From a virus, in the IMG/VR virus record IMGVR_UViG_3300029787_000151, positions 1 to 36,723 of that record: a stretch of 36,723 bases of DNA; one strand, given 5' to 3'. Within the stretch, counting starts at the first letter, position 1. The number at the start of each line of letters is the position of its first letter. The notes beneath the pieces were generated by a model that was given only the letters and a program-made list of their open reading frames with translations, had not been told where the DNA came from and did no database searches. Below are positions 2,677 through 36,723 of this stretch, piece after piece. A program made the translations under genes and the position numbers.

Positions 2677-3513
2677 ATGACCAGCCAGCATGACAACTAC
2701 CTTTTGCCGCCGAATGACGTGCAAATCAGTTTCAGCGGTGGCCGCACCAGCGCGTTTATGCTGCATCAGATACTTGAGGCTAACGGCTCATTGCCTGATC
2801 GGGTAAAGATCAGCTTTGCCAACACCGGCAGAGAAATGCCGGAGACCTTAGATTTTGTGCAAGAGTGCGCGCAACGATGGGACGTTCCTATTATCTGGGT
2901 GGAATACAAGCGTTACAAAGAGGAAAGAAAAAACTCATACAGAATAGTTTCTCATAACGAGGCCAGTCGTGACGGAGAGCCTTTCAAGGAGTTGATTGAG
3001 GCAAGAAAGTATCTGCCAAACGCTGTGGCTCGATTCTGCACGGCTGAACTGAAGATCCGGCCAATGAAAAAGTATCTGCTTTCGATTGGTTGGAAAAACT
3101 GGACGGCAGCGGTCGGCATCAGGGCTGATGAAGCCCACCGCGCCAAGACTGACAGTAAGGACAGATGGTCGTATTGGTATCCGCTGGTTAACGCTGGGGT
3201 GACCAAGCGCGATATTTACCAGTTCTGGAAAAGCCAGCCTTTTGATTTGCAGCTTGAAAATGTCAACGGCTCAACGCCGCTTGGCAACTGCGATATGTGC
3301 TTCCTAAAAAGCGAAAAGATATTAGCGCACATTGCCAAGACAATGCCTGACAAGGCTGCATGGTGGATACGCATGGAGCAAGAAACAGGCTCCACCTTTC
3401 GTAAAGACAGGGACTTGGCAGAGTTCACAGACTTTGTAGGCCGTCAGTCAGACTGGGTTTTTGATGATGAGAGCTTTTTCTGTCAGGCAGATGACGGCGA
3501 GTGTACGGGATGA
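2677..3513 (+). CDS. PAPS reductase-like / adenine nucleotide alpha-hydrolase family protein
   Basis: The 278-aa product carries the PP-loop S-G-G-R-T-S-A at residues 20-26 and the N-T-G-R-E-x-P-E-T-L-x-F motif of the phosphoadenosine phosphosulfate reductase family, plus a cysteine pair in C-D-M-C-F. Phage members are common, but their substrate is generally unknown. They are not expected to do assimilatory sulfate reduction without partner enzymes; roles in nucleotide, tRNA or DNA modification are usual guesses. The neighbouring methyltransferase (stop/start overlap ATGA at 3510-3513) makes DNA modification a fair idea here. The gene starts right after the preceding TAA. Family: confident. 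Biochemistry: open. Confidence 0.85.
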   Translation: MTSQHDNYLLPPNDVQISFSGGRTSAFMLHQILEANGSLPDRVKISFANTGREMPETLDFVQECAQRWDVPIIWVEYKRYKEERKNSYRIVSHNEASRDGEPFKELIEARKYLPNAVARFCTAELKIRPMKKYLLSIGWKNWTAAVGIRADEAHRAKTDSKDRWSYWYPLVNAGVTKRDIYQFWKSQPFDLQLENVNGSTPLGNCDMCFLKSEKILAHIAKTMPDKAAWWIRMEQETGSTFRKDRDLAEFTDFVGRQSDWVFDDESFFCQADDGECTG

Positions 3514-4025
3514 CCAGGCAGAAAGATGACTGGTATCCAACGCCTCACACAGCAATCAAGAGCCTGCTGGATGTCGAGGTGTTTGACCCTGTCATATGGG
3601 AGCCGGCAGCTGGTGACGGGGCTATATCCAAGGTGCTGGAGCTGGCCTGCTATGAGGTCGTCAGCCAGGATTTGAATGATTATGGGTATTGCGCTTCCGG
3701 CCTGGACTTTTTGATGGCAACAGAGCGCGAGGCTGACTGCCTGGTAACGAACCCGCCATATAAGCTCGCTCAGCAGTTTATCGAACATGCCATAGGTCTT
3801 GGCGTCAAGAAACATGCCTGGCTGCTGCGCTTGAGCTTCCTAGAGGGGCGGGGTCGGTTCCTGGAGCTGTTTGATCATTACCCGCCATCACGAATCCATG
3901 TGTTCTCCAAGCGCCTGACGATCTGGAGAGGCGGTGAGAAGCCTTCCGGCACCGGCACCACGGCCTACGCATGGTTTGTCTGGAACAGCAACTACAACGG
4001 CGTCCCGCAGCTGGGCTGGATATGA
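3510..4025 (+). CDS. DNA N6-adenine/N4-cytosine-type methyltransferase
   Basis: The protein (171 aa from the ATG at 3510) has the AdoMet-binding motif E-P-A-A-G-D-G at 31-37 and the catalytic N-P-P-Y at 81-84, in the order typical of amino-methyltransferases. It is short and has no obvious target-recognition domain, so it may be a solitary Dam-like enzyme. A likely role is protecting phage DNA from host restriction or marking it. The start is set by an ATGA overlap with the PAPS-reductase-like gene; the next gene starts in its stop codon in the same way. The recognition sequence cannot be read from the protein. Confidence 0.85.
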   Translation: MTRQKDDWYPTPHTAIKSLLDVEVFDPVIWEPAAGDGAISKVLELACYEVVSQDLNDYGYCASGLDFLMATEREADCLVTNPPYKLAQQFIEHAIGLGVKKHAWLLRLSFLEGRGRFLELFDHYPPSRIHVFSKRLTIWRGGEKPSGTGTTAYAWFVWNSNYNGVPQLGWI

Positions 4026-4225
4026 AGAAAAAAAGATCGATGCCAGCACCAAGACAAACAGAGCCAGAGCCATGCGTTGTTTGCGGCGCCATGCACCAGC
4101 TGCACATGGGAACCTGGATCATCACAGCCAACAAGGATCTGCTTTGTGCGAATGATCGGTGTTGGCGCATTGCAGTAGAAAGGGAAAAAGATGGGAAAGA
4201 GACACAAGATTTCATGGACAGATGA
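4022..4225 (+). CDS. Small zinc-ribbon-like protein
   Basis: From the ATG at 4022, which overlaps the methyltransferase stop, a 67-aa basic protein can be read. It contains C-V-V-C followed about 25 residues later by C-x-x-x-x-C, a plausible four-cysteine zinc site. There is a Lys-rich start (MKKKRSM). I do not recognise the family. It sits in a tightly packed early operon and its 3' end overlaps the next small gene by 35 nt. A longer reading from 3971 is possible but would overlap the methyltransferase heavily. Confidence 0.55.
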   Translation: MKKKRSMPAPRQTEPEPCVVCGAMHQLHMGTWIITANKDLLCANDRCWRIAVEREKDGKETQDFMDR

Positions 4226-4370
4226 GCGGCGACAAGCCCAGTCGGAGCGGCTCAAGAAGGCCTGGGCTGACAAAAAGGCCAGGGAGGATCTGCAGGCCTG
4301 GCACGATATCGGCGGCAAGACAGATCCCTGGTGGAAGCCTATTTTTGATTTATTCCGTAAAGGGGCTTGA
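4191..4370 (+). CDS. Small basic hypothetical protein (59 aa)
   Basis: A short frame runs from ATG 4191 to TGA 4368-4370, preceded by a good ribosome binding site (AGAAAGGGAAAAAG). The product is highly charged and probably helical: a KRHK-x-S-W start, a S-E-R-L-K-K-A-W-A-D-K-K-A-R-E-D middle and an aromatic end (DPWWKPIFDLFRKG). The middle resembles the 'SERMKxxW' segments of many phage DNA-associated proteins. It overlaps the 3' end of the zinc-ribbon gene by 35 nt. Its function is unknown. It fills an otherwise empty gap in the operon, which supports it being real. Confidence 0.6.
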   Translation: MGKRHKISWTDERRQAQSERLKKAWADKKAREDLQAWHDIGGKTDPWWKPIFDLFRKGA

Positions 4371-4376
4371 CAGAAA

Positions 4377-4715
4377 ATGGAAAGTAAAAATAAAATCGGC
4401 GTAGCCGCGCTAGATTCTAAGCTACCCAGAGCTCAGCGCACAAAGCTCAGCGACAACCCAATAATAAATAACTTACTGAAAAGCACTGCCAAGCAAACAA
4501 GCTATGCTTATAGCTCAGCTATAGCCAGAGCTAAGCTATCGCCGCTTGATGAGCTTCAGCGCAGGGTTTTCAAGAGGCTCAGGCCCATGTATGGATCTGA
4601 TCGTTACATGGAATTGCAGAACCAGGTCAGCGCATTAGCGCCGCTGGACAGACAAGACTGGCTCAATGACATGCAGGACAAGCTCAATGCAGTTAAGCAG
4701 GCTAACAATAGCTGA
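4377..4715 (+). CDS. Hypothetical protein (112 aa)
   Basis: The product is polar, Ser/Ala-rich and mostly helical, with no motif I recognise. It ends with a helical segment containing Q-D-W-L-N-D-M-Q-D-K-L-N. It lies between the 59-aa gene and the DUF6362-like gene; its 3' end overlaps the latter by about 29 nt. The DNA here is unusually rich in AGCT and GAGCT steps ('agctcagc'), also seen in the next gene. The location just upstream of the terminase block fits a regulatory or packaging accessory role, but this is only context. Confidence 0.5.
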   Translation: MESKNKIGVAALDSKLPRAQRTKLSDNPIINNLLKSTAKQTSYAYSSAIARAKLSPLDELQRRVFKRLRPMYGSDRYMELQNQVSALAPLDRQDWLNDMQDKLNAVKQANNS

Positions 4716-5085
4716 GCTTGACGAGCTCTTCATGGAAGCAGCTGAGACAGAGCGCAAGCTGCCAGCTGCAATGCGTAAACAGAAAATGTCCGGGTGGCCT
4801 GACTACCCCAGGGACTATGCAGCCTATGGCTATAATGCTTTTGAGGTGCCAATGCTCAAGGCAACACCTGATCAGGTTAGCCGCTACGATGCAGCATTGA
4901 ACCTGGTGCTTACCAAGCTAGATGAAGAGGACAGGCGCCTGGTATGGGCTGTGGCAGCCTCAGCTGCGTACCGCCAGCGAGGGCCACGCTGGACAAAGCT
5001 GGCGGTCATACTGGGCTTGAATGACCCCAGGATCGTTAAGCAAAGATACAAAGATGCGCTAATACGGTTATATTATATGCTTTAA
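4687..5085 (+). CDS. DUF6362-like HTH protein
   Basis: This 132-aa protein resembles, from memory, the DUF6362 family found beside terminase genes in alphaproteobacterial phages and prophages. Recognisable parts are an early W-P-x-Y segment, a central L-D-E-E-D-R-R-L-V-W-A-V-A-A-S, and a C-terminal sigma-factor-like helix pair (WTKLAVILGLNDPRIVKQRY) ending in a hydrophobic tail. The last pair probably binds DNA. I chose the ATG at 4687 (AGGACA upstream); 4666 is also open. It may regulate late genes or assist packaging. The family link is moderate and the function is inferred. Confidence 0.6.
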   Translation: MQLSRLTIAELDELFMEAAETERKLPAAMRKQKMSGWPDYPRDYAAYGYNAFEVPMLKATPDQVSRYDAALNLVLTKLDEEDRRLVWAVAASAAYRQRGPRWTKLAVILGLNDPRIVKQRYKDALIRLYYML

Positions 5086-11345: not shown

Positions 11346-12413
11346 ATGAGCACTCAAATCACAACCGCGTTTTCCCAGCAGTTTAGCACTAATGTACAGC
11401 TGCTTTCTCAGCAGACCGGCTCCATCCTACGGGGCGGCGTGTCTGAGGAATCAGTGACTGGCGAGAAAGCCTTTTTCGACCAGGTCGGTGCAGCTGCAGC
11501 GGTAAAACGCACATCACGCCATCAGGATACTCCGATGGTTGATACCCCACATAGCCGCCGGATGGTGACTATGGATGCCTACGAGTGGGCTGACCTAATC
11601 GATGATGCTGACAAAGTTCAGATGCTTATCGACCCTACAAGCACCTATGCCCGTGCGGCAGCGGCTGCGATGGGTCGTGCTATGGACGATGCCATCATTG
11701 CGGCAGCCACAGGAACGTCACTGACCGGCAAAGCTGGAGCGTCAAGCACAACAATGCTTGCTGCTAACCAGATAGCCAATGGCTCAGCTGATATGAGCGT
11801 GGCTAAGCTGATTGAGGCCAAGAAGATCCTTGACCTTGGTTCAGTTGATCCATCAATACCCAGGCATATTGCCCTGGGGCCAGACCAAATTGAGGCGTTG
11901 TTGAACACCACCTCTGTAACATCAAGCGATTTCAATACGGTAAACACTTTGCCTATCTGATCAGAAATGGTCAGATGAAAACTGCTCAAATTCGGGGAAG
12001 GCTTTAAAATGCTAATCCCGAGCCAAGCCCAGAAATGGGAAGGTGTAGAGACTTGACGGGCAGGGCCGTAACGCCAAGGGCGATGGTCAAGAGAAAGTCC
12101 AGACCACGAACAGCGAGAGCTGGCGGTGAAAACCGAAGTGGTACGAAAGGCGCTTGTACAGGGTGAGATCAACACATTCATGGGTTTCCAGTTCCATGTG
12201 ACCACTCGCCTTGCCAAATCTGGCAACATTCGCACCTGCTTTGCCTGGGCCGAGGACGGCGTCAAACTGGCAGTAGGTAAAGACGTAACCAGTCGTATCG
12301 ATGAGAGATCTGACAAATCCTATTCTACCCAGGTTTATTATTGCGCCCAGTTCGGCGCGACCCGGATGGAAGAGGAAAAGGTCGTTCAAATCGATTGCGA
12401 TGAGAGCGCGTAG
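11346..12413 (+). CDS. Major capsid protein, split by a group I intron (join 11346-11941 and 12146-12413)
   Basis: Exon 1 (596 nt) and exon 2 (268 nt) join to 288 codons, a 287-aa capsid protein, a normal length for this podovirus family. Without splicing, translation stops at TGA 11958-11960 (204 aa), and the downstream frame can only begin inside the intron at 12126. Splicing at U11941/A12146 joins D-F-N-T-V to K-A-L-V-Q-G-E-I-N-T-F-M-G-F, which restores the continuous block I remember from related capsid proteins. The N-terminus (STQITTAFSQQF) and H-x-D-T-P-M-V-D-T-P-H-x-R-R segment are also typical. The protein forms the icosahedral shell. A strong ribosome binding site precedes it. Family and splice model: confident; splicing itself is not demonstrated. 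Confidence 0.9.
11942..12145 (+). ncRNA. Group I self-splicing intron (IC3-like) in the capsid gene, no homing endonuclease
   Basis: The 204-nt element has the conserved core in order. P1 pairs 11939-11944 with 11948-11953, with the required U-G wobble exactly at the 5' splice site (U11941). P2 pairs 11955-11962 with 11969-11976. P3 pairs CTGCTC (11982-11987) with GGGCAG (12058-12063). P4 pairs TCGGG (11992-11996) with CCCGA (12017-12021). P7 pairs GACTT (12050-12054) with AAGTC (12095-12099). P10 pairs CTTT (11947-11950) with exon 2 AAAG. The intron ends in G (12145). Sequence blocks such as AATCCCGAGCCAAGCC, GTAGAGACTTGACGGG and AAGAGAAAGTCC closely resemble the cyanobacterial and alphaproteobacterial tRNA-type introns I remember. 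It carries no open reading frame of note. Confidence 0.93.
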
Positions 12414-19034: not shown

Positions 19035-21184
19035 TGGATTTTCTAACCTCATTTGCGAACAGCCGGCTAGATGCCAGAATGGCAAATGGCAGATATGCCA
19101 AGGCTATCCAGGACGCATCAGACATTGAGCTGGATGTTGACTACATCCTTAAAAAAGATGTCATGCCGACCAACACAGCTGAGGAGCTTGATGAGAGCGA
19201 GCTGATAGATATGAGCTCACCCACTGGCTCCAACTGGGCTGCCGCCAGTCAGCGCATTTATGAGACCTTCCGGGGCGACAGAGATCTGAAAGGCCGGAAC
19301 ATGGCACGTGGCGCGCGAGAGCCGCAGACGCCAGAAGAATATGCACAATGGGGCATAGAGTTCATTGGTCAGATGAATCACAATTTCTCAAGCATGGCCG
19401 TCAACACAGTCAAGCTGAACGGTCAGGACGACATGACCAAGCTGGCAATGCACCATCTGTTCCAGGATTATGAGCGCCTGCCCGGCATGAGCTGGAACGG
19501 CACAAAGCGGTTTTTTAAAGGTATAGCCACAGATCCAACCACATATATAGGGCTAGGCACACTAGGCCTGGGAACATTGGGTGTTGCCGGCGCCAAGCAA
19601 ATGAGCAAGCAAGGTTTCTCGCGTTTCTTGCAAGGATCTCTTAATCCCAAAATGTTGGCAGCCTATGAGGGCGCTGGCTACACCGGGGCTTTCGACCTAA
19701 TGCGGCAAAATGTTGACGTGCAAGCCGGAATCCAAGGTGAATTTGATTTAGGACAAACTTTTGGACAAGCGGCTCTCGGCTTTGGGGCTACACGCGCGTT
19801 GGCTGAAGGCGTTGACCAAGTGGTCAAAAACGCACCGGCCATAGCAGGAGCTGTGCGCGATAGCATCGATCAGCTGGGCCAGGCAGCTGACGCCAGGACT
19901 TTGGAAAGAGCCCAGGATACAAGCGTCCAGCTCAATACTGGCGTTGATCCAATGCCGATGATTGATGAAACATTATCAATGATTGGGCGCAGTGTCAGGC
20001 CTTCTACCGATGAAATGAAAAAAGTTCTTGATGCAAGATCTGAACAAATGAAATTGGCCCCGGCAAAACGGGTTCAGCCTAGAAATGACCAGCCGCTTTT
20101 TGAGTTGGACTATCAAAAAACCACTGCTGAGCAGAAGCCAACACCCGTTCCAAGAGCACCAGAGGGGAAGCCTTTACCTAAATTTAATCGTGGTGCTAAA
20201 GTAATTGAGATGTCTGACAAAATTGCTACGGTATTGGCTAATCGGGCTAAACCCTTTGTCGGCACAAACGTGCAGTTTTTCTATCACACTGGGCCTATCA
20301 TTGATAAGGCTGTGTCGCTTGGCATCCCAGAAGATAGAGCTAGAACGCAGCTCCGCAAGTTTGCAGAAAACTATGCAGCCACAAGCCCTCGCACAAAGAC
20401 AGAAGATAACCTCAGAAGCGCAAGCCTGGTGACAGCAAAGCAAAAAGCCGGGTTGAATTTGTCAGATATGATTGGCCCTGGTGGTGATGGCATCAACGAA
20501 AAAGGCTACCCAATGATGATTGGGCCAGGCGGCATACATCAAAGGCTTGTTGATGATGCTGCCGCTGGGGGATTTAATTTTAACACTAATCCTAAGCCAG
20601 CTACATTTGTTGAGAATGTGGCCGGCAACCATGCCGGCGTCACAGCCGACACTCATGCTATTCGCGCTGTATTCAGCGCCATGAATGAAATTGAGCCAGG
20701 CTCTGTACCGATCCAATTTATTGGCGGCAAAACAGCGGCAAAGACAAAAGAACTTAGAGCTCAGTATGAGGCTGACCCATCATCACTAAATGTTGCAAAT
20801 ATGATTGACGACACGCTCGCAAGTCAAAAAATTAATGGTGAACCAGTCCAAACTGAATATGCCATTTTTTCTGACATTTACATGAATGTAGCCAAAAAAC
20901 TAGGGGTCCAGCCAGCCGAGGCACAATCTTTATCATGGTTTGCCAACGGCGACAAAACTGGCTTAGGGTCTGCCCCTAAAACGATTGTGGAACTAATTGA
21001 TGAGCGTGTTGATGTCACTGCTCAAGCATTAAACCAATCAAAGGATGAGGTGTTCAAAAAATTCATGCAGGGCTCCATACCGCTGCTGTCACTTGGCGGT
21101 GTGACTTTGCTAGATACGGGGGCTGCACAAACTGTAATGACACAAGATGATGTTACCAGTGTAGCCAACGCCTCAGAATTATAG
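19034..21184 (+). CDS. Large virion/ejection protein with DUF7178-like C-terminal domain
   Basis: This 716-aa protein starts at GTG 19034, overlapping the previous TAG. The first about 300 residues are helical, with a Gly-rich apolar patch (Y-I-G-L-G-T-L-G-L-G-T-L-G-V-A-G-A) that could touch membrane. A Pro/Lys linker near 360-380 leads to a separate domain with F-Y-H-T-G, A-T-S-P-R-T-K-T-E-D-N-L-R and N-P-K-P-A-T-F-V-E-N-V-A-G-N-H-A-G-V-T-A-D-T-H-A-I-R-A. The last pattern resembles a phage domain family I recall as DUF7178, of unknown function. This domain is unusual in an internal core protein and may be an enzyme delivered with the DNA. A terminator follows. Confidence 0.65.
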   Translation: MDFLTSFANSRLDARMANGRYAKAIQDASDIELDVDYILKKDVMPTNTAEELDESELIDMSSPTGSNWAAASQRIYETFRGDRDLKGRNMARGAREPQTPEEYAQWGIEFIGQMNHNFSSMAVNTVKLNGQDDMTKLAMHHLFQDYERLPGMSWNGTKRFFKGIATDPTTYIGLGTLGLGTLGVAGAKQMSKQGFSRFLQGSLNPKMLAAYEGAGYTGAFDLMRQNVDVQAGIQGEFDLGQTFGQAALGFGATRALAEGVDQVVKNAPAIAGAVRDSIDQLGQAADARTLERAQDTSVQLNTGVDPMPMIDETLSMIGRSVRPSTDEMKKVLDARSEQMKLAPAKRVQPRNDQPLFELDYQKTTAEQKPTPVPRAPEGKPLPKFNRGAKVIEMSDKIATVLANRAKPFVGTNVQFFYHTGPIIDKAVSLGIPEDRARTQLRKFAENYAATSPRTKTEDNLRSASLVTAKQKAGLNLSDMIGPGGDGINEKGYPMMIGPGGIHQRLVDDAAAGGFNFNTNPKPATFVENVAGNHAGVTADTHAIRAVFSAMNEIEPGSVPIQFIGGKTAAKTKELRAQYEADPSSLNVANMIDDTLASQKINGEPVQTEYAIFSDIYMNVAKKLGVQPAEAQSLSWFANGDKTGLGSAPKTIVELIDERVDVTAQALNQSKDEVFKKFMQGSIPLLSLGGVTLLDTGAAQTVMTQDDVTSVANASEL

Positions 21185-21237: not shown

Positions 21238-24087
21238 ATGGCACTTACAGATCCTAAGACACCTGAGGGCATGGCCTTGCAGGGCGATTTACTGCGCCCG
21301 TTAGAGGGCAATGAAATGCAGCCCGTGCAGACTGCTGGGCTATTTGACGCGCTAGGCAAGGCAGTGGGTGGCCCGGTCCTCAACAGGGCTCAACAGCGCC
21401 TGCGCGAGCTGCAGTCACAGCCACAGCCGGCAGCCCCTGAGATTGCTACAGATGCAGTGCCGGTTGATCCTGTTTATGAGGCACAGCTTAAAGCAATGAC
21501 CGCGCCGTATGAGCGAGGCCCGTCACCACAATTCGGCAAACCTGATGAAGAGCTAATACAGGACTTTACCAGCGATCAGCCGGTCCAGGTTGGTGAGGAT
21601 GGTTTGCTTACTGACTTTCGTGCGGTAGGGGCTGCAGGGGATGAAAAGATCCCAAACGAGGGCCGTGTGCTGGCGTCCATAGAGGCCATCAGCAAAACCT
21701 ACAGCAGCGAGATCACTGATGCCACGCGCGGAGAAATGACACAAACGGCGACCCGTGATCTTGCAAATCTTTTAGGCACAAGCCCAAAAAATCTAGCGCG
21801 TAATATCTTAGCCAGGGAAAAGGGCGGCGTCATCACGTCAGAGCTGGGCTTGGCAGAAACCATGCTGGCAGCCAGGGATTTGCTTGTAAGGGAAATTAAG
21901 AACCTGGATGAGCTGGCGCTAAAAGCAGAGACAGGAACAGATGAGGATGCCCTAATGTTTCGCGCGCAGCTGGAGTTAGTAGGCCAGCTGCAAACGCAGA
22001 TAAAAGGCTCACAAACAGAAATCGCAAGAGCTCTAGCGCAGTTTAGGATTCCAGCACAATCAGGCCAAGAGCCAGTGATGCGCGCCGCAATGATGACATC
22101 AGTGCTGGATGAGTATGGTGGTTCTGGCGACATACGGAACATTGCCAAAATGTACAATCAGGCCGGCTCAACGCACGGCAGGGCTGGCTTTGCTAGAAAG
22201 GTCAGTAAGCTCAAAATTAAAGAGGGCTTTGATGCTGTCTATGAGGCATGGATCAATATCCTTTTAAGTAACCCAGTTACGCATATGAAAAACATTGCTG
22301 GCGCGTTTTTGACCACAGGCGCTCATGTGCCGGAAATGTATGGCGCTGCTATGGTTGGTGGCATGAGACGCGCTATGGGCGGCCAGGGCGGCGCTACAGC
22401 GTCAGATGCCCACGCATCTATGTTTGCCTCTATGATGGCGCTGAGAGAGGCCTGGGGAGCTGCAAGTCGGGGCTTTTTGACCGGCGAGAGAGTAATTCCT
22501 GGCACCAAGATAGAGGGTGGTTTAGGGCGCCGCCCAGGCAATGCATTTTCTGGTGAGGCGTTTGGCGCTCAGGGTCCATTAGGCACCGCCATAGATGGGC
22601 TAGGCCACCTCGCAACCCTTGGACGAGTGCCAACCCGTGCGCTGGAGTTTGAGGATGCCTTTTTCAAAGTGGTTGCACAGCGCATGTCTCTTTACGAGCA
22701 AGCTATGCGGTCAGGCCGGCAGAAGGGTTTTACTGGTGATGATCTGGCTGAGCATATTGCTCAATATGTTTACAACCCACCGCCTAACGCTGCAAAGCAG
22801 GCAGACGCTCACGCTAAATATGTGACGCTACAAAGTGAGCTGGACGAGGTTGGCAAAAACATTGGTGGCCTGCGGAAAATACCTGGCATGAGGTATTTCC
22901 TGCCATTCTTCAAAACGCCTTATAATGCTTTCAAATACGCTATGTTAGACCGCACACCAGTAGGTATAGCCTATGGCGAAAGCAGCAGGGCCATAAAAAG
23001 AGCAAACGCGCCAGGCGCGTCTATGGCTGACAAAGCTGCTGGAGATTTAGCAATCGCCAGGATCGCTATGGGTTCAATGACTGCGGCCATGATATTTGGC
23101 TTTACTCAAAGCGGAGAAATTACCGGCAAGGGTCCAGCTGATAGAGGCCTGCGCGCATCGATGATGCGTAGTGGGTGGAAGCCCTACTCTGTCAAGATTG
23201 GCGATACATATTACAGCTATCAAACAGCAGAGCCTTTTTCGACAATCATTGGCTTGGCCGCCGATGCAGCTGAGGCAATGTATGATGGGGGCATGGCTGC
23301 TGACAAAAGTGAGGATGTTTATGCGGCTGTCGCAGCTGTCATTGGCAATCAGCTGACTAACAAGACATTTATGCAGGGCTTTAGCAACCTAATTAAAACC
23401 CTTAATGACCCGGTTCGTTATGGTGAATCAACGGCAGATAATTTTATAAGATCTTTAACACCTCGGATAGCCGCCAGTGCTGAGCGTATTTTAGATCCAA
23501 CTGTAAGAGCAACGCAGGACAAGATAGATTTGTTTAGAGCTCAGATTCCTGGTTTGAGTTCTTCTTTGCCAGCCCGGCGCAACTTTTGGGGCCAAACAAT
23601 CTACACTAGCGAAGCAGCTGGCCCCGATATCATCAGCCCAATTTACAAAGGTCAGTTCGGCCCAAACCAGCTGGACCCAGACCCCGCTCGCGCCAAACAG
23701 GCCTTTGAGCTCGACCAAGAGTTTGATGCAATCAAATGGGGGCCGACAGACCACCCGAGCAATTTTGATGACATGATTGAGTTCGGGCCAATGTTGAAAG
23801 CCCGATATCACGACTATGCCGGCATGAGAGCCCTGCAAACAATTACCCAGACTGTGGGGATGCCGGAATATCAAAAGTTCCGCGATGCGTTTGTGAACAA
23901 CGGAGACAAGCTGGCCCGTGATCAGGCCATCTTGATGCTGCGCAGCGCCACGCTATCAGCTAGGGAAATGGCGAAAGGCGATATGATGTCCGACAAAGAA
24001 TTTGGCCCTGAGCTGCTGGAGCTTATTGGAAGAGCAAACGACAAAAGATCTAAGCAGGCAGATAACATTATGGAAGTATTGAGATGA
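21238..24087 (+). CDS. Very large virion / ejection protein (gp16-position)
   Basis: This 949-aa protein is the last large gene before the tail fibre, the position of T7 gp16. The N-terminal third is Gln/Glu-rich and helical. The middle contains N-I-L-L-S-N-P-V-T-H-M-K-N-I-A-G, a signature I recall from large phage virion proteins with polyvalent-type domains. Apolar helices follow, near residues 350-410 and 610-630 (I-A-R-I-A-M-G-S-M-T-A-A-M-I-F-G-F), which could insert in the host membrane during ejection. No lytic transglycosylase motif is evident, unlike T7 gp16. Its stop overlaps the tail fibre start (ATGA). Confidence 0.7.
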   Translation: MALTDPKTPEGMALQGDLLRPLEGNEMQPVQTAGLFDALGKAVGGPVLNRAQQRLRELQSQPQPAAPEIATDAVPVDPVYEAQLKAMTAPYERGPSPQFGKPDEELIQDFTSDQPVQVGEDGLLTDFRAVGAAGDEKIPNEGRVLASIEAISKTYSSEITDATRGEMTQTATRDLANLLGTSPKNLARNILAREKGGVITSELGLAETMLAARDLLVREIKNLDELALKAETGTDEDALMFRAQLELVGQLQTQIKGSQTEIARALAQFRIPAQSGQEPVMRAAMMTSVLDEYGGSGDIRNIAKMYNQAGSTHGRAGFARKVSKLKIKEGFDAVYEAWINILLSNPVTHMKNIAGAFLTTGAHVPEMYGAAMVGGMRRAMGGQGGATASDAHASMFASMMALREAWGAASRGFLTGERVIPGTKIEGGLGRRPGNAFSGEAFGAQGPLGTAIDGLGHLATLGRVPTRALEFEDAFFKVVAQRMSLYEQAMRSGRQKGFTGDDLAEHIAQYVYNPPPNAAKQADAHAKYVTLQSELDEVGKNIGGLRKIPGMRYFLPFFKTPYNAFKYAMLDRTPVGIAYGESSRAIKRANAPGASMADKAAGDLAIARIAMGSMTAAMIFGFTQSGEITGKGPADRGLRASMMRSGWKPYSVKIGDTYYSYQTAEPFSTIIGLAADAAEAMYDGGMAADKSEDVYAAVAAVIGNQLTNKTFMQGFSNLIKTLNDPVRYGESTADNFIRSLTPRIAASAERILDPTVRATQDKIDLFRAQIPGLSSSLPARRNFWGQTIYTSEAAGPDIISPIYKGQFGPNQLDPDPARAKQAFELDQEFDAIKWGPTDHPSNFDDMIEFGPMLKARYHDYAGMRALQTITQTVGMPEYQKFRDAFVNNGDKLARDQAILMLRSATLSAREMAKGDMMSDKEFGPELLELIGRANDKRSKQADNIMEVLR

Positions 24088-31806: not shown

Positions 31807-32037
31807 ATGTTTGTCACTGACAAAAAAATAGCTGAGGTAGCTGAAGAATTGCTGCCGCTCTTTGAGGTTGGAGATCTGCATAGCCGCACAAAGGTTGGCA
31901 AGATTGCTATCCACGCAAAGGAAGCCCTCCAGGAACATGGGCTGCCTACTAGGTTTAGCCTTTGCTGTGTGGTCGCCAAGGTCGCGCTGACAGCCTGGCA
32001 AGAAGAGGTTCTCAAAACAAAACAGGCGGTGGCCTAA
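31807..32037 (+). CDS. Small hypothetical protein upstream of integrase (76 aa)
   Basis: The protein is helical and well expressed by its ribosome binding site (AAAGAAAGGGAGAAAGACC-ATG region). It has no motif I recognise; K-K-I-A-E-V-A-E-E-L-L-P-L-F and T-K-V-G-K-I-A-I-H-A-K-E-A-L suggest a compact helical domain. It is first in the integrase operon, 26 bp before the integrase ATG, so it may modulate recombination or be a transcription factor. Confidence 0.6.
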   Translation: MFVTDKKIAEVAEELLPLFEVGDLHSRTKVGKIAIHAKEALQEHGLPTRFSLCCVVAKVALTAWQEEVLKTKQAVA

Positions 32038-32063
32038 CGGCCCCGCCCTCAAGGGAGGCAATC

Positions 32064-33182
32064 ATGGAAATAGATGTAAGCCAATATCGCTCACGTGCTA
32101 AGGAAGGCAAGGCCTCTTGGTGCGTTGACACTCGCGCTCTGGTACACAACGGCAAGCAGGAATTTTTCAAAACCAAGGCCGAGGCCAAGGTCTATGCTAA
32201 GCACGTTGCAGCCGAGATCAGCCCGGCCAGCTCACAGGCCTGGGACTGGACGTTTAAGCAGCTGTGCGACAGCTACCTTGCTTACGTACAACAAGAGTTT
32301 GACGATGGCGAGATCAAGCGCTCTAACATGCTGGAGAAAAAACGCCACGCTAGATGCTTTGTTAAGCTAACTCTAGATAACCACAAGCTCACTAGCTACA
32401 AGGTGCGTGACCTTACCGCCGGCCAGATCAAGCTGCAGCTGATGAACCAGCTGAAGAAAGACCGCACAATCAAGACAGTCAAAAACATTATGGGCAATGT
32501 GCGCCTGATGTTTGATCACGCGATTGATTCTGGCTGTCGTAACAGCAACCCGGCTCTCGGCGTCAAGGCCAAGGGTTCCAAGGGCGCCGGTAAAGGCCTG
32601 GCAGTCAAACCTAACGAAAGCATGATTGACAATGTCATAGCGCATATGACGCCTGTGTGGCAGCTGCGCGCTGAGTTTGCAGCGACCACTGGCCTGCGCC
32701 AGGGCGAACAGCGCGCTCTCTTGTGGGCTGACCTTGTTGACCATGACTTTAAAAAGGTTGATGTCAACAAAGCAGTCGAACACCGGGCTGGCGTTGGCGA
32801 TACAAAGACGCCGGCTGGTAAGCGTAAGGTTCCGCTAAAGCCAGACGTAGCCAAGAAAATGAAAGAGCTGTGGATGGCCGAGGGCCGGCCTATGAAGGGC
32901 CTGGTGTTCCCGTCACGCACGGGGCATGTGCTATCAGACAGTAGGTTCCTGCCGGCCATACACGCTGCCTGCGATGCAGCTGGTGTTGCGCGCATCAGGT
33001 GGCACGATCTACGCCACTACTATGCCTCTAAGCTCTTGCAGAAATTTCCTGGTGACTGGTGGACTGTCACCAACCTGATGGGCCATGAGAGCATCAAGAC
33101 AACCACAGAGATCTATGGGCATTGGCTTGAAGATGAAGCCCGTGACCAAGAGATCGCTGATAAGATGTGGGGGCCTTCCTAA
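32064..33182 (+). CDS. int: Tyrosine-type site-specific integrase
   Basis: From ATG 32064, preceded by AAGGGAGG, the protein has 372 aa. An N-terminal arm-binding domain (about 1-60), a SAM-like core-binding domain (about 60-165) and a catalytic domain follow in order. The catalytic set is complete: R212 (T-G-L-R-Q-G-E), H314 and R317 (W-H-D-L-R-H-Y), H341 (M-G-H-E-S) and nucleophile Y351 (T-E-I-Y-G-H-W). It integrates and excises the phage at attP, which lies just upstream. The upstream extension to 31962 lacks a good start. An operator-like site lies before the operon. Confidence 0.95.
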   Translation: MEIDVSQYRSRAKEGKASWCVDTRALVHNGKQEFFKTKAEAKVYAKHVAAEISPASSQAWDWTFKQLCDSYLAYVQQEFDDGEIKRSNMLEKKRHARCFVKLTLDNHKLTSYKVRDLTAGQIKLQLMNQLKKDRTIKTVKNIMGNVRLMFDHAIDSGCRNSNPALGVKAKGSKGAGKGLAVKPNESMIDNVIAHMTPVWQLRAEFAATTGLRQGEQRALLWADLVDHDFKKVDVNKAVEHRAGVGDTKTPAGKRKVPLKPDVAKKMKELWMAEGRPMKGLVFPSRTGHVLSDSRFLPAIHAACDAAGVARIRWHDLRHYYASKLLQKFPGDWWTVTNLMGHESIKTTTEIYGHWLEDEARDQEIADKMWGPS

Positions 33183-35180: not shown

Positions 35181-35297
35181 TCACTTCCATAAAGTTGGAT
35201 CAGGGAAAATTAGGACGAGCATGGCGCACACCATCCCCATCATAATCACGAAAAGTATTGTTGCGAAAATCTCGCGTATCCATTCCCACATTGTCAT
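35181..35297 (-). CDS. 38-aa single-pass membrane protein
   Basis: The frame opens at ATG 35297, sharing ATGA with the nuclease stop and preceded by GGGGG, and ends at TGA 35181-35183. The product is M-T-M-W-E-W-I-R-E followed by one hydrophobic segment of about 20 residues rich in Ile, Met, Val and Leu, and a short tail ending L-W-K. It fills the gap between two coupled genes exactly. A membrane peptide in an early recombination operon is unusual; a role in exclusion or in host nuclease inhibition can only be guessed. Confidence 0.65.
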   Translation of the reverse strand: MTMWEWIREIFATILFVIMMGMVCAMLVLIFPDPTLWK

Positions 35298-36241
35298 ATC
35301 AACCCCCATGTCCTTTTGGCTTCATCCAGATATGCCGGCGATTCGTTCCAGCACAGCAGGGACCAGTCTGGTGAGACCATGCCCAACAGCTCGTCCTTAG
35401 TGCTGGCTGCCCTGAGGATGTTTTCGGTTGTTTTGTGATAGTGCTGAATGTCTTGGACGACATCAGCGAGGAAATCGTCACGCAGCTCCGGCGCGTTATC
35501 CGGCGTGAACAGCACATAGTCAGTTGTGCTGGCATACAAGATAAAGGGTGGCTGGCGACCATTCAGCGCCCAGAAACCGGCAGCCTGGTAGACAGAGTTC
35601 ATCTCCCACATGCCGGATAGTTTCTTAGGCGCTGAAACGCTACTCCACCCAGATTTTGTCTTGGCAGGCTTTGACCATTTTGTCTTGAGGTCTCCGCGCC
35701 GCACATAATCAGGGCGAGTGTTATGAGGTAATGCATTGCCGGGCAGCGTATCCATCAGGGCAATCTCGCCCAGGATGCGGTTCTCCCGTGCCATAGCTTC
35801 CCGCAGGCCGGCTATGGCATTGTCTATGACCAACGGCAGCTCTTCTAGATATTTGCTTTTCTTGATCTCATCAGTGCCATTGTCCCAGCTGATCGGCCTA
35901 TAGGCCTTCAGCTTGTCTATAGCTGCCTGCTTGGCCTCTTCTACCGAGGTGGTCTTGCCTTCCTTGTCAGGCACCAGGACCATGTCAGTGGCCAGCTGCG
36001 TTGCAACGCCGGCCATCATGTTTGCTGAGCCGGTATTGAAATACAGCGTGTCGAGGATCTCACGCGCTCTGGCGCGCTCAGCCGGGTCTGCCTGTGATGA
36101 TTTGATGATTTGAAAAGCCCAGTCAACCAATACTCTGACGTGGGTTTTTTCGTAAATCGCTTTTGCGCGATCTTTGGATCTTGGGTTTGAGTGCCAGAAA
36201 TATTGATGCCTGGCAGCCCAGTCGGGTGTTTCGTGTAGCAT
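35294..36241 (-). CDS. PD-(D/E)XK nuclease, copy 2 (complete, 315 aa)
   Basis: The protein has G-E-I-A-L-M-D near 158-164, R-P-D-Y at 176-179, D184-L-K186 in the string DLKTKWS, and Q-x-x-x-F at 219-223, the ordered motifs of RecB/Cas4-like PD-(D/E)XK nucleases. A C-terminal segment from about 230 is specific to this family. It is probably the exonuclease that resects phage DNA for the annealing protein encoded two genes downstream. Ribosome binding site GGAGAGG lies before ATG 36241, and the palindromic operator is 36 bp upstream. It is a distant paralogue or allele of the gene at 1-764. Confidence 0.82.
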   Translation of the reverse strand: MLHETPDWAARHQYFWHSNPRSKDRAKAIYEKTHVRVLVDWAFQIIKSSQADPAERARAREILDTLYFNTGSANMMAGVATQLATDMVLVPDKEGKTTSVEEAKQAAIDKLKAYRPISWDNGTDEIKKSKYLEELPLVIDNAIAGLREAMARENRILGEIALMDTLPGNALPHNTRPDYVRRGDLKTKWSKPAKTKSGWSSVSAPKKLSGMWEMNSVYQAAGFWALNGRQPPFILYASTTDYVLFTPDNAPELRDDFLADVVQDIQHYHKTTENILRAASTKDELLGMVSPDWSLLCWNESPAYLDEAKRTWGLI

Positions 36242-36306: not shown

Positions 36307-36723
36307 TCACGTTGCATTATTTATTTTTAAAAGCGTATCTGATTCCAAATCAGCCCAGACAACCCCATGAAATTCTGGCTGCTCGACCATCACGATGGTG
36401 GGTGATGCCCATTTGATTTTTAGATTTGTGTAATTTCCGAAATACAAGGATTCCATAGAATAGGTATTACGGCCTGACTGGTAAAGGATGCCATAGAGAA
36501 GTTCATTACTCTCAGTCATGGCACAGCAATACTTGCCCAATGCCCTGGGATCAATTGTGCTGGTAACAACTGGCGTCCTTGGCAAAATACTCATCATGCC
36601 GTGCATCCAACTGCTGGGGTGGTCCTCTAGTCCTTCCAAATCCCAGTACAGCGCCATCATATCGTCAGCAAAATAATCGTGCATATAAACGGCCTTGTTT
36701 GCGTATTTCTTTGATCGTTCGGT
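36307..36723 (-). CDS. Repressor, copy 2 (partial, runs off right edge)
   Basis: The frame is open from the edge to TGA 36307-36309 and encodes the C-terminal 138 residues of a repressor that is about 90% identical to the one at 837-1616. Differences are scattered (for example D-G-L to E-G-L, R-G-P to R-T-P, M-M-I to V-M-V), and most DNA changes look synonymous or conservative. It ends one residue earlier. The HTH half lies outside the window, so it is unknown whether the DNA-binding specificity is the same. The presence of the same operator downstream suggests that it is. Confidence 0.85.
   Translation of the reverse strand, partial: TERSKKYANKAVYMHDYFADDMMALYWDLEGLEDHPSSWMHGMMSILPRTPVVTSTIDPRALGKYCCAMTESNELLYGILYQSGRNTYSMESLYFGNYTNLKIKWASPTIVMVEQPEFHGVVWADLESDTLLKINNAT

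Follow-up and report, generated by a model that had tools for sequence, protein, structure and literature searches.

In all likelihood, the major capsid gene (PF19821) of an HTVC010P-type podovirus is interrupted by a functional and mobile group I intron that lacks an endonuclease and belongs to the tRNA type (IC3-like). The gene lies in IMG/VR record IMGVR_UViG_3300029787_000151, of which positions 1 to 36,723 were analysed and are referred to here as the window. The capsid frame starts at position 11346, enters the insert and meets an in-frame TGA at 11958 to 11960 (plus strand), which would end translation of an unspliced message; the rest of the gene forms a second open frame that extends to 12413. 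This stop, and the resumption in another frame, had been described in an earlier sequence-only reading of the same DNA, and we find both. Exon 1 (11346 to 11941, plus strand) comprises codons 1 to 199, with the break after the second base of codon 199, and exon 2 (12146 to 12413, plus strand) was placed by homologue alignment and exon joining. Joining the exons yields an uninterrupted protein of 287 amino acids with the junction DFNTV/KALVQG, exactly as that reading had predicted. The spliced protein matches both PF19821 (Phage_capsid_2; 308 bits) and phrog_3437 (major head protein) over the full length, and it is colinear with more than 100 intronless homologues. An uninterrupted version is present in 80 IMG/VR contigs, at 68-92% identity.

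The intron comprises 204 nt (11942 to 12145, plus strand), between the last base of exon 1, U11941, and its own terminal base, G12145. It is recognised by Rfam family RF00028 (Intron_gpI) at positions 11932 to 12117 on the plus strand, with 59.1 bits for a gathering score of 50 and E=1.1e-12. This match spans positions 1 to 253 of the 253 in the model and is the sole Rfam family match in the window. Our own covariance model R1, made from related introns, finds 11942 to 12145 exactly, the very interval proposed from the sequence alone, with 212 bits; since the window intron is among the sequences used to build R1, this score is not independent, whereas the Rfam match is. No second intron copy was detected in the window with R1. 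The intron folds more stably than shuffled sequences (z = -3.8, 0 of 200 shuffles being as stable). In an alignment of 42 related introns, 89.8% of cells are paired in the structure formed by P2, P3, P4, P5, P6, P6a, P7, P8, P9, P9.1 and P9.2, and 287 cells show changes on both sides of a pair, as compared with 88 ± 8.5 in shuffles and 19 to 91 after the pairing partners had been shifted by one to three columns.

All the group I sequence blocks and pairings named in the sequence-only reading, including the U-G pair at the splice site and the terminal G, are present. P1 (11939 to 11953, plus strand) is formed by the exon sequence GGU at 11939-11941 and the guide GCC at 11951-11953, with U11941 and G11951 as the splice-site pair, and can be extended in the sequence by AAA (11942-11944) with UUU (11948-11950). 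The P10 partner is the AAAG that begins the 3' exon (12146 to 12149), which pairs with the CUUU directly 5' of the guide G. The P2 hairpin (11955 to 11976) shows compensatory changes in 7 of its 8 pairs, and P3 (11982-11987 with 12058-12063) is 100% paired with compensatory changes in 5 of 6 pairs. In the P4-P5-P6-P6a domain (11992 to 12044) 97.6-100% of cells are paired, and compensatory changes occur in all four helices. P7, the guanosine-site helix that is pseudoknotted with P3 (12050-12054 with 12095-12099), is also 100% paired; changes on both sides occur at one of its five pairs, where U-A is swapped for A-U in 14 of the 42 introns. P8 (12065 to 12088) can form in the window, and P9 with its P9.1 and P9.2 hairpins occupies 12104 to 12141. 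The 42-intron alignment gives partial support to P8 (52% of cells paired, in a gapped region) and to P9 (77%), while P9.2 is 100% paired with compensatory changes in 4 of 4 pairs. This comparative analysis confirms the predicted group I core, that is, the P3-P7 pseudoknot together with the P4-P6 domain, at 11942 to 12145. With guanosine as cofactor, the ribozyme would release itself from the capsid mRNA through the boundaries and pairings read from the sequence (P1, GGU/GCC; P10, AAAG/CUUU), and the joined exons would then encode the 287-residue capsid protein. The intron has no endonuclease reading frame in its 204 nt, as had been claimed; no homing endonuclease was found there, and none turned up either among the window proteins that were scanned or among 67 flanking reading frames.

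The genes around the capsid gene are ordered terminase, head-tail adaptor, capsid and tail proteins. The closest isolates by capsid protein are the Pelagibacter phages HTVC035P, HTVC034P and HTVC010P (65-67% identity). The presence of both a PF19821 capsid and a short-tail gene order fits an HTVC010P-type podovirus. The window also encodes an integrase (31962-33182) and, on the plus strand at 2677-3513, an auxiliary gene resembling phosphoadenosine phosphosulfate reductase. Near-duplicate genes are located at both ends of the window, all on the minus strand (837-1643 and 36307-36723; 3-764 and 35294-36241). These duplicated ends may be remnants of tandem prophages, variant ends of a circular genome or an effect of assembly.

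We scanned IMG/VR with exact intron-core patterns that contain no capsid sequence. PF19821 capsid loci represented 66 of 99 and 31 of 65 pattern matches in the two scans that were complete, and the scanning as a whole revealed about 98 loci in which homologous capsid genes carry endonuclease-free introns of about 190-266 nt. Nearly all of the intron-bearing relatives are metagenome contigs. Spliced alignment against intronless genes delineated 127 frame-restoring introns, reduced to 73 once near-copies were removed; each of the 127 has a U before it and a G at its end, a uniformity that is partly built in because the splice-site caller favoured these bases. The introns occupy about 20 positions, from codon 42 to codon 272, along a coding sequence of about 860 nt, and the window site, codon 199, is by far the commonest. 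In this count the "codon 54" site of locus L314 was reassigned to the codon-52 site, where P10 fits, and an insertion near codon 84 in L248 that has no clean G end was left out. Thirty of 90 genes contain two introns or more (22 with two, 7 with three and 1 with four), and the covariance model recovers all four introns of the last (L161, contig IMGVR_UViG_3300030102_004614). The introns form two length classes, of about 190-230 nt, which includes the window intron, and about 230-266 nt. The longest capsid intron measured is 266 nt, and all are too short to include a usual endonuclease gene. In the window and in three other records of about 36-37 kb (G003, G005, G006), all introns detected by the model lie within the capsid gene. 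In a sample of 80 capsid genes picked by exon 2 similarity only, 12 or 13 carry at least one intron. On this comparison of sequences, a single intron family has colonised one capsid gene at about 20 sites.

The guide pairings follow the insertion sites. As a measure of P10, we counted how many bases of the 3' exon pair with those immediately 5' of the guide G. Over the 73 introns it averages 2.44 Watson-Crick pairs, compared with 0.85 ± 0.12 when exons are swapped; at the main site alone the values are 2.5 and 1.65 ± 0.18, and the observed value was reached in 0 of 2000 permutations. P1 pairs average 2.48, compared with 1.93 ± 0.07 with exons swapped. Nearly all introns of the short class (about 200 nt) stand behind GGU, which matches a constant guide, whereas the guide of the long class (about 250 nt) differs from site to site. 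That P1 and P10 co-vary with the exons speaks strongly, at the sequence level, for use of the splice sites given here.

Natural empty sites are available for comparison. Two intronless contigs, L327 and L328, are 96% identical to the window over the coding sequence and, outside a short tract around the insertion point, share 96.7% identity with the spliced window across 5.1 kb. Fifteen differences from L327 are packed into 34 coding nucleotides (coding positions 573-606), against about 3% elsewhere. The intron and this exon tract together occupy 11918 to 12155 on the plus strand, with about 24 nt of exon upstream (11918-11941) and about 10 nt downstream (12146-12155). The tract of L327 is common to its nearest intronless relatives (0.92-0.97), while that of the window resembles the tracts of other intron-bearing phages (0.84-0.92), which argues that the intron was gained together with flanking exon. 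A further contig, L259, carries an intron identical to that of the window at 204 of 204 positions, within the same exon tract. Downstream it shares 99.89% identity with L327 across 2,755 bp, and the two differ by the intron plus tract; since the L259 contig starts only 219 nt upstream of the intron, it could also represent an assembly that mixes strains. When tract and backbone identity were compared over all intron-bearing phages, the first comparison was confounded by indels; with a corrected backbone the tract effect is significant, and modest outside the window lineage. We conclude from these alignments that the window intron carries the signature of a recent gain, with about 34 nt of flanking exon, by gene conversion (homing). 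An empty site and co-conversion of flanking exon are what is expected of a mobile intron, and both are seen here in the alignments; such a tract is also what intron homing through break repair should leave behind. On this sequence evidence, the lineage of the window acquired the intron recently through gene conversion at the DNA level, with an intron-bearing relative as donor. Since neither the intron nor the genes found nearby contain an endonuclease, the conversion may have been aided by a trans-acting endonuclease or by ordinary recombination during co-infection. The lone capsid intron of the sequence-only reading thus stands as an intron and gives way as an isolated case, to a family at about 20 sites with a conversion footprint.

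The history of the family can be read from the intron trees. When insertion sites are mapped on the intron tree, 21 changes are required for 21 site labels and, on a common set of rows, 17 changes by site against 36 by genome. Introns at other sites are nested among those of the main site, and the codon-52 site requires at least two changes. Introns therefore cluster by site and not by genome, which implies that changes of site are rare and that each site's intron then spreads. Introns also appear to have been exchanged at one and the same site, because L311 and L322 differ from L190 and L197 by 6-7% in their exons and by 34% in their introns.

Outside capsid genes, the introns most closely related to this one are those of tRNA genes, in agreement with the tRNA-like character assigned to the intron from its sequence. 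Bacterial IC3 introns (tRNA-Leu UAA, tRNA-Arg CCU, tRNA-Ile) share the core GTAGAGACTTGACGG...AAGAGAAAGTCCAG and a similar small size, but the host here is a viral protein-coding mRNA, with P1 and P10 refitted to capsid exons. Core kinship with both bacterial and phage tRNA introns thus points to a tRNA-type (IC3-like) intron in the window. On bacterial chromosomes, 71 of 119 loci with the core pattern lie in some tRNA, mainly tRNA-Leu(UAA), and none of the 119 has a PF19821-type capsid gene as its host. Outside PF19821 genes, 65 of 96 model matches lie in the anticodon loop of phage tRNA genes, mostly tRNA-Leu(UAA)- and tRNA-Arg(UCU)-like, and a tree of the introns shows the family nested with these. 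A 2014 review placed all phage introns known by then in protein-coding genes (PMC3984707). Several phage loci, L164 and L254 among them, harbor tRNA genes split by group I introns, several of them in a row in one phage; the model matches of L164 are at 3564-3765, 4175-4385 and 4816-5017. HNH endonuclease frames adjoin tRNA-type introns in six phage loci (L211, L235, L241, L250, L264, L296) and are candidate trans-acting homing nucleases. A related, unannotated tRNA-type intron was also observed near aac(3)-IId on plasmid NC_004464 (61936-62073; an IncL/M record), and over a thousand plasmid records, many of them enterobacterial, carry a related intron near the same gene.

Besides PF19821, the protein-coding hosts identified all encode major head proteins, of T7-like, SU10-like or HK97-like type. 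In the cultured Pelagibacter phage HTVC120P (L408, MH598807, record positions 19433-20607), a T7-like capsid gene contains an intron of the same type, of about 197 nt. The gene was deposited as two 'capsid protein' CDSs, gp29 and gp30, and splicing restores one protein. The fosmid phage KT997847 (L407, record positions 21756-22832) has a T7-like capsid gene that is annotated as separate capsid proteins and contains two introns, with model matches at locus positions 1457-1660 and 2168-2349. An SU10-like major head gene (phrog_1328) in L257 (IMGVR_UViG_3300009413_001264) harbors three introns, the middle one near the class of the window intron, and L301 has an insertion of unsure boundaries in an HK97-like capsid gene. 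In a tree of all introns, the capsid introns of the short class come together in a single group (93/96) close to the tRNA introns; this group includes one SU10-like capsid intron, and the T7-like capsid introns stand apart. The deep branches of this tree are weak, and the deep placement of the 250-nt class, which aligns poorly to the model, is unreliable. From the separate position of the T7-like introns, capsid genes have probably been entered by introns more than once. The wider spread in tRNAs suggests that the movement was from tRNA to capsid genes, on a tree that is unrooted. On this longer time scale, kin of tRNA introns would have entered capsid genes repeatedly and moved to about 20 sites, with a guide sequence that suits the exon at each. 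In a bolder and less likely reading, a lineage of tRNA-type ribozymes that lack an endonuclease would have specialised on phage major capsid genes, invading the one gene again and again (about 20 sites, up to four introns) and crossing between capsid families; it would enter new sites by guide-directed reverse splicing into abundant capsid mRNA and pass from phage to phage by gene conversion.

Several other explanations were considered. A frameshift, a programmed shift or a dead gene is ruled out, as homologues lack the insert and the insert folds as a conserved ribozyme. A dead, unspliced gene, with a decayed intron or a sequencing error as the cause of the interruption, is hardly credible when dozens of contigs carry the insertion at the identical base with compensatory changes, the exons together still specify a capsid protein of full length and the capsid gene of a cultured phage, HTVC120P, is split by an intron of the same type. 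Vertical inheritance, with patchiness caused by repeated loss, would agree with the correlation between intron and exon distances (Mantel r 0.46, 0 of 2000); it is improbable given that the polarity of the co-conversion tract indicates gain and that near-identical exons (L311/L322 and L190/L197) contain unlike introns. We also consider it unlikely that the intron is retained as a regulator of capsid expression through timing or GTP sensing, an idea raised in the sequence-only reading. The in-frame stop just within the intron would make capsid synthesis dependent on splicing, and a similar 'molecular switch' has been suggested for phage DNA-metabolism genes (PMC11878797), but about 85% of the nearest capsid genes are intronless, isolates such as HTVC010P have no intron, and presence, number and position vary freely, as for a parasite.

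The strongest of these alternatives, although still a minority view for us, is spread at the RNA level, in which the excised intron reverse-splices into capsid mRNA or tRNA wherever its guide fits and is then returned to DNA by reverse transcription and recombination. This would agree with a choice of hosts, tRNAs and capsid mRNAs, that should be plentiful RNAs, and with the lack of an endonuclease in the introns. It would also suit the GGU that precedes nearly all introns of about 200 nt and matches their constant guide, and the closely related introns of L131 and L206, which are inserted at two GGU|AG motifs separated by 4 nt. However, the only recent event that can be resolved shows co-conversion of exon sequence, a feature foreign to reverse splicing, and the guide of the 250-nt class varies with each site, so that a pre-matching guide is unnecessary. 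We therefore favor DNA-level gene conversion for the recent gain in the window.

Introns in capsid genes are already known as such, and precedents exist to the sequence-only reading's statement that phage introns favour polymerase, thymidylate synthase, ribonucleotide reductase, terminase or lysozyme genes. The major capsid gene of mycobacteriophage LittleE contains an intron whose splicing was shown in infected cells (PMC3706429), and the same article cites a group I intron in a capsid subunit gene of lactococcal phage Tuc2009. The LittleE intron shares with the present family its host gene, its U and G ends and its patchy presence among relatives, but it measures 819 bp, encodes a LAGLIDADG-like reading frame and occupies one site in one phage, a Mycobacterium siphovirus (PMC3706429). 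As cited there, the Tuc2009 intron is a single case in an unrelated phage. The tail-gene intron of BAKA and Optimus is likewise small (265 bp), endonuclease-free, located in a virion gene and shown to splice, although at a single site in a tail gene (PMC3706429). Three group I introns in the Twort tail tube gene orf142 (Landthaler and Shub 1999, as cited in PMC11878797) offer a precedent for several introns in one small structural gene; by that citation they concern one tail gene of a Staphylococcus phage, whereas up to four introns per gene and dozens of genes are found here. Bastillevirinae phages also have several introns per gene, but these are confined to the genes for DNA polymerase, terminase, thymidylate synthase and ribonucleotide reductase, average 802 nt and are mostly IA-like (PMC11878797). 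In the literature searched, which included few subscription papers, we found no report on capsid introns of pelagiphages, HTVC010P or HTVC120P, and none of this family, of four introns per capsid gene or of a capsid hotspot. The family and the hotspot are provisionally regarded as new.

Gene callers split intron-bearing capsid genes, so that searches for capsid markers overlook them or annotations misname them, and isolates such as HTVC120P are no exception. Why phage introns should be restricted to the core genes of nucleotide and DNA metabolism is a question raised in a 2025 survey, which considers that the mode of primary colonisation seems beyond reach (PMC11878797). Against the metabolism-gene bias of that survey, the intron hotspot described here is a virion gene, in a marine type of phage. 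In this family the stages can be viewed side by side: kin in tRNA genes, insertions with refitted guides at about 20 sites, capsid genes that contain between one and four introns, intronless sisters at a distance of 0.1%, and a conversion tract that can be resolved. Intron birth, site switching and endonuclease-free homing would thus be open to direct experiment.
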